From the NCBI RefSeq assembly GCF_000333015.1, contig NZ_BANT01000002.1, positions 124,001 to 188,000 of the forward strand: a stretch of 64,000 bases of DNA, given 5' to 3'. Shown piece by piece: positions 51,907 through 54,297 of this stretch. Both the position numbers and the translations under genes were made by a program. Origin of the DNA: Gordonia hirsuta DSM 44140 = NBRC 16056 (lineage in GTDB: Bacteria > Actinomycetota > Actinomycetes > Mycobacteriales > Mycobacteriaceae). Each line of letters begins with the position of its first letter. Position 1 is the first letter of the stretch. The notes beneath the pieces were generated by a model. It searched no databases. It was not told the DNA's origin and worked only from the letters and a program-made list of their open reading frames with translations.

Positions 51907-51980
51907 CGGGCTGTGGCGCAGCTTGGTAGCGCACTTGACTGGGGGTCAAGGGGTCGCAGGTTCAAATCCTGTCAGCCCGA
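51907..51980 (+). tRNA. tRNA-Pro (anticodon GGG)
   Basis: A 74-nt cloverleaf. The acceptor arm CGGGCTG (51907-51913) pairs perfectly with CAGCCCG (51973-51979), discriminator A at 51980. The anticodon stem CTTGA/TCAAG encloses the loop CTGGGGG, with anticodon GGG at 51941-51943. The T arm has GCAGG TTCAAAT CCTGT. CCA is not encoded. From 51950 onward, sequence through the terminator is repeated at 54213, which suggests that this gene served as an integration site. Confidence 0.95.
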
Positions 51981-52034
51981 CCGTTTATGCAGGTCAACCG
52001 GCCTTCCCGAATCTCGGGAAGGCCGGTTTTCTGT
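51950..52034 (+). repeat. Direct repeat copy 1: tRNA-Pro 3' half plus terminator (candidate att)
   Basis: These 85 bp start in the variable-loop region of tRNA-Pro and run past its terminator. They align without gaps to 54213-54297 with 10 mismatches counted by eye (about 88% identity). The bases before 51950 and after the repeat do not align. Taken as one boundary of an integrated element. Confidence 0.75.
51996..52030 (+). terminator. Intrinsic terminator of tRNA-Pro
   Basis: A perfect 15-bp stem (51996-52010 with 52014-52028), ATC loop, followed by a T-run. It lies inside the direct repeat. Confidence 0.9.
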
Positions 52035-52055
52035 ATTCACCCCCAAACCGCCCGG

Positions 52056-52696
52056 AACGCTGTCGAAGCCCATGTCGCCACCGCCGACATCACGCTCGAC
52101 GCGGTCCTGGACGCTGCGATTGTCCCGGTCATATTTGTTGCTGCTGACATGGTGGTGGACGCCTAGATCACGGTGCTGGTGGACACGTTGGGCAGTGGAG
52201 TCAAGCTCGGCGCAGACATCACCGCTGAGGTGGAGTGTCGGAGGATGTGCAGCAGGACAGACCGGTCACCGCTTCAATCGCCACCGCGATCACGGTGTCG
52301 GGCATCGTGGCCGCCACAGGAATGACTGGCGAACACGCCACGGCACCCATCACCCAAACTGGCTCGGTGTCGGCGCCGTCGGACAAGGTCACCACCTTGC
52401 ATATGGAGCGGATCGGCGGGGCATGAGTTGTCTGGATCGGCACCACCATCACCACCGGATTCGGCGGCAACGCGACCTCGAACGCGCTCCCGGGTTCCAG
52501 CTCATGGTCGGCCACCCTCCACCTAATAGTCAATGTCGGCTCGCAGTGGGTCATCGACGGAGCTGTCGAAAGCGCAATCGGAGCGGGCACCGCTTCGATG
52601 ACCCGCACTATTTCGGCGTCAACGTCGATCGGCCTCTACATCACAGTTGGTGGGACCACCTCGAACACCTCTTGTTTGGAGATCGTGCCCGCCTAA
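52056..52696 (+). pseudogene. Decayed phage-structural-like gene
   Basis: The translation is coherent but broken. From 52056 it reads an Ala/Val/Asp/Thr-rich pattern (ATADITLDAVLDAAIVPV), meets an in-frame TAG at 52164, and continues through GADITAEVE. The frame shifts between about 52225 and 52240, then runs through ITVSGIVAATGMTG to a TGA at 52424. It resumes in that frame through SSSWSATLHLIVNVGSQWVI and ends at TAA 52694-52696 with SLEIVPA-like CLEIVPA. The repetitive first part and beta-rich C-terminal part with a hydrophobic end resemble tail-fibre or minor-tail proteins of actinophages; that match is inference. No start codon or ribosome site is visible, so the 5' end is lost. Its own terminator follows at 52711. 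Confidence 0.65.
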
Positions 52697-52710
52697 CGCC
52701 CGCACTTTGG

Positions 52711-52741
52711 CCGCCTCACCTACGGAAGGGGCGGTTTTTTT
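52711..52741 (+). terminator. Intrinsic terminator after the decayed gene
   Basis: CCGCCTC pairs with GGGGCGG (one wobble), 10-nt loop, then a run of seven T. The upstream gene is a pseudogene, but this terminator remains intact. Confidence 0.75.
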
Positions 52742-52810
52742 GTGCATCCCCGGGTCACCCGTTCAGCCGACAGGTAGTCCGAACCAGGTAACACCGACAC
52801 CACCGGCGAC

Positions 52811-52816
52811 TAGGGT
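52811..52816 (+). promoter_or_regulatory. Candidate -10 of the island nuclease gene
   Basis: TAGGGT stands 43 nt before the GTG at 52854, downstream of the terminator at 52711, so the nuclease gene can be an independent transcription unit. GGGGAGGG (52837-52844) is the ribosome site. Confidence 0.45.
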
Positions 52817-52853
52817 TCCCAACCATCCGTGCCTAGGGGAGGGACCTGCACCA

Positions 52854-53978
52854 GTGAGCATCGCTGAAGCCATCAAGAATCTGGCTAAGAAAGTCCAGAA
52901 CACCAAAGACACCATCGCTACCGAAGAGGCCACCAAGAACGCCCTCATCATGCCGTTCATCTCCAATGTCTTGGGCTATGACGTCTTCGACCCCACCGAA
53001 GTCGTCCCAGAGTTCACAGCCGATGTCGGGCTCAAGAAGGGCGAGAAAGTCGACTACGCGATCTTCCACAACGGCGCCGTGCAGATCCTCATCGAATGCA
53101 AACCGATCGGCGCCACGCTCGACCTGCACCACGCCGGCCAACTATTCCGCTACTTCTCGGTCACCTCGGCGCGGATCGCGATCCTCACCAACGGCCGGGA
53201 ATACCAGATCTTCACCGACGGTGACATGCCCAACCGGATGGACGAGAAACCGTTCCTGGTCTTCGATCTCCTCGACCTGGACCGCAGTCTCCTGCCGGAG
53301 GTGCAGAAGCTCGCCAAGGATTCGTTCGACCTGGACTCGGTCATCAACGCCGCCCAGGAACTCAAGTACGTCGGCGGTATCCGCCGGATCATCAGCAACG
53401 AAGTGAAAGCTCCCTCCGACGACTGGATCCGGTACTTCGTCAGCCGTGTCTACGATGGCAAAGCAACGCAGCGGGTCCTCGAACAGTTCCGGCCGCTGGT
53501 ATCCAAAGCGGTCAACCAGTACATCGGCGCCCAGGTCAACGATCGCCTCAAGACAGCACTGGGTGAGGATGCGGCGTCGGCGACGAACGAACCGGAACCC
53601 GCACGCCCAGCCGCGGCCGTCGACACACCAGCCGCCCAAGAGATTGCCGCGGCGCCGGAGCCGGATCCGGAATCGGACATCGTCACCACCGAAGAGGAAC
53701 TCGAGGGATTCAACATCGTGCGCGCGATCGCCGTAGCGGAGGTTCCACCAGAGCGGGTCGTCTACCGGGACGCTAAAGCCTATTTCGCGGTGCTGCTCGA
53801 CGACAACAACCGCAAACCGATTATCCGGCTGCACCTCAACGGCAAGACAGTCAAGTATGTGACGACGTTCGAGACCAGCAACGCCGGCACGCGTCACGAC
53901 ATCGAATCGGTCATCGACATCTACAACGTGGCTGATCCGATCCGGGCGGCGATCCGTCGGCACGAACGGGAAGCATGA
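52854..53978 (+). CDS. Stand-alone HsdR-N-like PD-(D/E)XK nuclease
   Basis: A 374-residue protein matching the N-terminal nuclease part of type I restriction enzyme R subunits, as found in stand-alone COG4748-type proteins. Residues 28-60 have the family stretch KNALIMPFISNVLGYDVFD and PEFTADVGLKKGEKVDY. The catalytic core is Asp67 (KVDYAI) and Glu81-x-Lys83 in ILIECKPIG, followed by GQLFRYFSVTSARIAILTNG. No helicase motifs follow. An Ala/Pro/Glu-rich linker (about 240-285) leads to a second conserved domain of about 90 residues (GFNIVRAIAVAEV to the end). No HsdM or HsdS is nearby. Codon use is visibly more AT-rich than the neighbours in places. It lies between the two tRNA-Pro repeats and is their only intact gene; a role in nucleic-acid restriction is inferred. 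GTG at 52854 was chosen by ribosome site and family start. Confidence 0.85.
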   Translation: MSIAEAIKNLAKKVQNTKDTIATEEATKNALIMPFISNVLGYDVFDPTEVVPEFTADVGLKKGEKVDYAIFHNGAVQILIECKPIGATLDLHHAGQLFRYFSVTSARIAILTNGREYQIFTDGDMPNRMDEKPFLVFDLLDLDRSLLPEVQKLAKDSFDLDSVINAAQELKYVGGIRRIISNEVKAPSDDWIRYFVSRVYDGKATQRVLEQFRPLVSKAVNQYIGAQVNDRLKTALGEDAASATNEPEPARPAAAVDTPAAQEIAAAPEPDPESDIVTTEEELEGFNIVRAIAVAEVPPERVVYRDAKAYFAVLLDDNNRKPIIRLHLNGKTVKYVTTFETSNAGTRHDIESVIDIYNVADPIRAAIRRHEREA

Positions 53979-54118
53979 GTGTCGACGACTTCGAGGCGCC
54001 TGACCCGATCGGGCTGTAGGCGCTGGTGGAGCTCGCGCAGGTCGACGTGATGGCCCGTGTCGAAGCACTGCTCGAAGCGGTGGTCAGGTCTAAACCCTTA
54101 CCGCTCCGTAAGACCTGA
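53975..54118 (+). pseudogene. 47-codon open frame interrupted by an amber codon
   Basis: ATG at 53975 overlaps the nuclease stop (ATGA). It reads MSVDDFEAPDPIGL, then TAG at 54017-54019, then ALVELAQVDVMARVEALLEA and ends RKT-TGA at 54116-54118. The helical second half suggests a formerly coding sequence coupled to the nuclease gene. I do not recognise a family. Confidence 0.45.
54084..54118. repeat. Inverted repeat at the end of the island
   Basis: TCAGGTCT (54084-54091) and AGACCTGA (54111-54118) form a perfect 8-bp stem; a short inner TAC/GTA pairing is possible. No T-run. Confidence 0.5.
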
Positions 54119-54212
54119 GACCGACAGTACTGTTCGGACGGTGCGATACTCGCTGACACTTGGACGTGCATCGACACCAGACGACCCCCGAAACATGATA
54201 ATTCGTGTACAT

Positions 54213-54297
54213 GGGGTCGCAGGTTCAGTTCTTGTCAGCCCGACCGGTTATGCAGTTCAGCCGGCCGTCCCGAATCTCGGGGAGGGCGGTTTTCTGC
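54213..54297 (+). repeat. Direct repeat copy 2: partial tRNA-Pro plus terminator (candidate att)
   Basis: Matches 51950-52034 at 75 of 85 positions. It contains the T arm and 3' acceptor strand of tRNA-Pro but no 5' half, so it cannot make a tRNA. The terminator part (54261-54294) has stem mismatches and looks weakened. Defines the far boundary of the island. Confidence 0.75.

Follow-up and report, generated by a model that had tools for sequence, protein, structure and literature searches.

Integration at the 3′ end of a tRNA gene, leaving remnants of the integrated element behind, is textbook biology. For the tyrosine-integrase phages of M. smegmatis, one account describes attB sites that overlap tRNA genes and have a common core at least 25 bp long, and cites the phage Giles for an integration vector (PMC9262239). 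Of 23 attB sites of tyrosine integrases in M. abscessus, 16 are given as overlapping tRNA or tmRNA genes, and the three candidate PICIs shown in that work integrate at tRNA genes (PMC10654092). For Gordonia phages, 13 attB sites are reported, 10 of them in tRNA genes; tRNA-Pro does not appear in Table 2 of that source (PMC5559632).

The window analysed here, a 64-kb stretch of the Gordonia hirsuta genome, contains one tRNA gene according to ARAGORN, an intact tRNA-Pro(GGG) at 51907–51982 on the forward strand, which was also the sole match in an Rfam scan (51907–51980) and which we presume to be the attB host gene. The record of the mycobacteriophage Giles holds a 46-bp exact match to positions 51936–51981 of the window, about 100 bp from the Giles integrase gene, and this match occurs in Giles and its relatives in 20 rows among the 40 matches listed; in Giles, it is the attP. 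What Giles and the window have in common is the tRNA part only (query positions 7–52 of 111) and nothing beyond it, and the locus in the window, unlike Giles, has neither an integrase nor a recognised Giles gene. More broadly, 365 records of the phage collection matched the query at E 0.01, many of them at tRNA genes, and the exact 31-nt tRNA end was found in 17 stretches from 15 viral contigs.

The 3′ end of the intact tRNA is repeated further downstream, directly and on the same strand. The 87 nt at 51947–52033 recur at 54210–54296 with 10 mismatches and a spacing of 2,263; an earlier note on this DNA, made from the letters alone, had given the same mismatch count and spacing, and its length of 85 bp was 2 nt short. 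The repeat starts at tRNA position 41 and continues through a terminator-like hairpin 3′ of the gene (51996–52028, with a perfect 15-bp stem). Alignment of the two copies upheld the duplication: the distal copy matched the proximal one at 77 of 87 positions, compared with 43/87 at the next best ungapped place on either strand of the window and 40–44/87 for five shuffled versions of the repeat (forward strand only). The repeat is far above chance. No likeness between the two places extends beyond its borders, and tRNA positions 1–40 are absent from the distal copy (4/25 and 5/15 matches there), which bears out the claim that the second copy lacks the 5′ half of the tRNA.

While the proximal copy belongs to the intact tRNA with its perfect terminator stem, the distal copy carries four changes in its 36-nt tRNA part, two of them in the T-loop, one of which affects A58, a position that is normally invariant. 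Its terminator is also predicted to fold less stably than that of the proximal copy (−28.6 vs −36.7 kcal/mol). Because A58 is among the four tRNA changes and the terminator folds more poorly, the distal copy reads as the decayed one. The tRNA part (4/36) and the sequence that follows it (6/51) have diverged to a similar degree. The start of the distal copy and the DNA just upstream of it also pair into a hairpin (54169–54245; z −2.7), possibly by chance.

We interpret 51947–54296 as the remnant of a mobile element that integrated at tRNA-Pro(GGG), and assign this reading a probability of about 0.78. The evidence largely supports reading the two copies as the degraded attL and attR of an element that integrated long ago, with the proximal copy as the presumed attL and the distal copy as the presumed attR. 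Site-specific recombination by a tyrosine recombinase would have inserted the element into the 3′ half of tRNA-Pro(GGG), and the element’s attachment site would have brought in a new tRNA 3′ end with a terminator, now the proximal copy, with which the tRNA would have stayed functional. The host’s original 3′ end and terminator would have been pushed downstream to become the distal copy, now decayed. Nearly the whole element, including its integrase, would then have been deleted, with a nuclease gene, from a family under purifying selection, retained. The element was most likely a temperate phage or a phage satellite; for its phage nature as such we would give roughly even odds. Since no integrase gene lies inside the interval, we limit the claim to the remnant of a tRNA-integrated element.

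Across the genus, for which we compared 59 genomes (our own and 58 others), tRNA-Pro(GGG) is an integration hotspot. The gene der was present in the fetched stretch around the tRNA in 46 of 51 other genomes, and lay outside the stretch examined in the other five. By a search with a 23-nt tRNA-end pattern and up to two mismatches, 11 of the 58 other genomes have the tRNA 3′ end a second time, 0.7–10.3 kb downstream and on the same strand of the same contig; the window’s own distal copy has three mismatches to this pattern, so that decayed copies elsewhere may have been missed. G014 has two tRNA-end copies on different contigs. An integrase or a fragment of one lies between the copies in eight of the 11 (G009, G016, G034, G051, G052, G054, G063 and G068). 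G045 makes a ninth, with an integrase C-terminal stub whose matches are to Gordonia phage tyrosine integrases (E 6e-5 for the best), and no integrase was found between the copies in G041 and G057. Outside the genus, the tRNA end of G021 recurs 36.5 kb downstream over 48 bp at 100% identity, and an integrase adjoins it.

Longer elements at tRNA-Pro, which the earlier note had proposed looking for in relatives, were found as islands of about 10 kb in G009, G016 and G063. Proteins of the G009 island (L044) match integrase, portal, large terminase, capsid and primase families. The islands of G016 (L040) and G063 (L062) have integrase, terminase and capsid clusters in common with it; the portal cluster is also present in L062, and no gene of that cluster was called in G016. 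All three lie downstream of tRNA-Pro with a 25-bp repeat and look like capsid-encoding phage satellites. These islands with head genes, like those of G051, G052, G034, G054 and G068, resemble the window in using the same tRNA and in having its 3′ end duplicated on the same strand. They differ from the window in having an integrase or fragment between the copies, a repeat of 25–50 bp, a larger size, and flanks beyond the tRNA that are unrelated to each other, G016 partly excepted. The window’s nuclease was present in none of the 11 repeat-bearing relatives, which have other DNA between their copies and in each of which the second copy is the end of its own tRNA. A second copy without the intervening genes is what the earlier note would have taken as refutation; with other DNA in between and tRNA ends of their own, these relatives neither overturn the remnant reading nor prove it.

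The repeat in the window runs through the terminator. The 53 nt beyond the tRNA, compared between proximal and distal copies, agree at 46/53 positions without gaps in the window, and are unlike each other in nine of the 11 other genus pairs (at most 34/53 aligned, scores up to 11); the G016 pair is intermediate (36/53, score 15.5) and the G045 pair agrees at 51/53 aligned positions. Among 132 between-genome control pairs, the best scores reached 33 and one pair agreed at 43/53 ungapped, indicating that terminator sequences are common to several genomes at the tRNA-Pro site. That the window’s repeat includes the terminator, a feature it has in common with G045, is mildly unusual.

This feature bears on a different explanation, a local tandem duplication, in which a segment from inside the tRNA rightwards was copied within the chromosome and the second copy was mostly deleted, leaving the tRNA 3′ end and terminator beside the FUSC gene. 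Such an origin would suit a repeat whose terminator resembles the one in G031 and that has diverged similarly throughout, as well as the unrelated flanks in nine of 11 other genus pairs and the lack of an integrase left in the interval. It would need two events, however, at a site that is an integration hotspot, and the left edge of the repeat at tRNA position 40–41 recurs in G045, where the terminator is another one and an integrase stub is present. We consider the duplication unlikely.

The flanks of G045 and its relative G060 are collinear (91.5% on the left, 89.5% on the right). G060 has a single copy, and the place taken in G045 by the island and the 145 bp behind it is filled in G060 by about 730 bp of other DNA. 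In G045, a terminator-inclusive repeat thus goes together with a decayed integrase-bearing element. We infer the same association for the window. The mini-island of G045 (L292) is like the window in being short (1.2 kb) and in having a repeat, here of 113 nt at 92%, that starts at tRNA position ~40 and takes in the terminator; unlike the window, it has kept an integrase C-terminal stub, carries other cargo with a HicB-like frame (by eye), and has a different terminator.

Of the viral stretches with the tRNA-Pro 3′ end (L305–L321), 16 ends have 70 nt of sequence behind them; a hairpin stronger than in shuffles (z below −3) follows eight of these and not the other eight, as if some viral elements brought their own tRNA terminator; viral contig L319 has a strong hairpin right behind the core (z −5.5). 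No viral contig matched a degenerate pattern of tRNA end plus terminator. Some tRNA-Pro elements might carry the tRNA 3′ end together with the host lineage’s own terminator, so that integration would exchange the transcription unit’s entire 3′ end. The window and G045 would represent two cases of independent origin, and what stays after loss of the integrase would be a small cargo locus, in the window a restriction-like nuclease that selection has kept. We put this forward tentatively, and regard it as possible and rather doubtful.

To the right of the distal copy lies a gene for an FUSC_2 transporter (54386–55423, forward strand), weak homologues of which at E 1e-10 were found in three of the 58 other genus genomes, 27–30% identical and non-syntenic. 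No genome of the same species was found among those searched, and the genus genomes searched yielded no clean empty site. The closer parallel is G031, where a single copy is followed by a terminator related to that of the window and, 16.7 kb downstream, by a MaoC-family gene. Because its DNA to the right of the tRNA differs from that of the window, G031 is not a clean empty site. Elsewhere in the window, at 59383–59586, a 67-aa frame that looks by eye like a cold-shock protein lies within a 274-bp stretch that is 89% identical to G031.

Between the two copies there is one intact gene, one coding-like broken stretch and one broken short frame, as the earlier note had it. The broken stretch (52034–52696, forward strand) has a gene-like codon-phase composition, internal stops and a change of frame near 52230, and is a decayed gene. 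Its description as phage-like was not borne out by searches of phages, PHROGs and viral contigs. With blastn against phages, it gave short matches in eight records at E 0.8 only. Single pieces searched as protein against phages gave no match in one search and a single match in a second, to a Streptococcus phage repressor at E 0.04, and no piece matched PHROGs or viral contigs. Against 300 other genomes of the family, the pieces gave two weak matches (E 8e-4 and 9e-3), which we read as non-phage proteins. DNA matches of 52034–52852 within the genus (24–48 nt in nine of the other 58 genomes, with E values between 7e-5 and 9e-4) were taken as chance.

The short frame (53975–54118, forward strand) is interrupted by an in-frame TAG at 54017–54019, and the DNA between the intact gene and the distal copy matched five phage records at E 0.2–0.8 only. 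We recognised no structural or lysogeny phage genes in the interval. A profile built from nine integrases also found no integrase trace there, in agreement with the earlier note. The genome as a whole has four Phage_integrase matches, and the one inside the window, at about 39.4 kb, is probably xerD.

The intact gene (52854–53978, forward strand) encodes a 374-aa HSDR_N-type nuclease. Its product matches the PHROG 4225 endonuclease at near full length (E 2.9e-123), and its Pfam domain is HSDR_N. Alignment with relatives (18 sequences in all) showed D67 and E81-x-K83 to be invariant; the window’s protein thus keeps the presumed catalytic D and ExK residues of HSDR_N and PHROG 4225 nucleases, which form the PD-(D/E)XK pattern. 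No PADLOC model matched at E 0.1, and no solved relative was found at E 1. Compared with four relatives (362–370 codons, uncorrected), nonsynonymous difference was 0.16–0.20 and synonymous difference 0.61–0.68; against the G004 copy (338 codons) the values were 0.12 and 0.73. Since nonsynonymous difference is well under synonymous, the family is under purifying selection.

Members of this nuclease family occur in 18 phage records. In the two that we inspected, the gene lies in a region with a repressor and an integrase, and in viral contig L155 it adjoins an integrase. By our integrase profile, a tyrosine integrase lies near the nuclease relative at one of 80 genome loci and at 19 of 80 viral loci, and none was found at 24 control loci. 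Each set of 80 is the best 80 of a longer list, the profile comes from nine integrases and is narrow, the flanks of some loci are short, and the controls are unmatched. PHROG 4225 relatives in genome contigs are therefore mostly without a tyrosine integrase in the fetched flanks, and with 1 of 80 such loci positive, we rejected the nuclease as a marker of a phage element. Within the genus, the gene is present in three of 59 genomes, our own included. The homologues in G004 and G005 are located elsewhere, and a location shared between those two was rejected because they have no other neighbours in common. From these sequence comparisons, the nuclease looks like a roaming gene, which is compatible with cargo and does not prove a phage; it may have arrived with the element.

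The same observations could be accommodated by independent insertions through chromosomal flux at a variable locus, with the second copy being a fragment of another duplicated tRNA-Pro gene and no mobile element involved. The DNA content downstream of tRNA-Pro does vary among relatives, and the nuclease gene does lie mostly away from tyrosine integrases. Yet the own-genome matches listed (6 of 7) include no second full copy with the window’s terminator, and the geometry of the repeat is that of integrase-bearing relatives, which makes this explanation very improbable.

An element remnant is supported by the repeat with its tRNA-end geometry, the hotspot, the integrases in nine of 11 repeat-bearing relatives, G021, Giles, the viral contigs and the comparison of G045 with G060. 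Counting against it are the lack of any remaining integrase or recognisable phage gene, the unmatched decayed stretch, the single positive among 80 nuclease loci, the genus nuclease homologues located elsewhere, the lack of a same-species empty site, and terminator regions that are alike in the window (46/53) and unlike in nine of 11 other genus pairs. The original proposal of a remnant of site-specific integration thus gained from relatives with the same site, geometry and integrases, and lost ground where the phage matches of the decayed gene were unconvincing and the nuclease family proved to lie mostly away from integrases.

The value of this analysis is in local annotation: elements occupy this site in relatives too, which makes a remnant in this window ordinary biology. 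For the genus, the tRNA-Pro(GGG) gene next to der is documented as a repeatedly used attachment site, including for islands with phage head genes, and stages of decay are visible there from integrase-bearing elements to integrase-free cargo loci.
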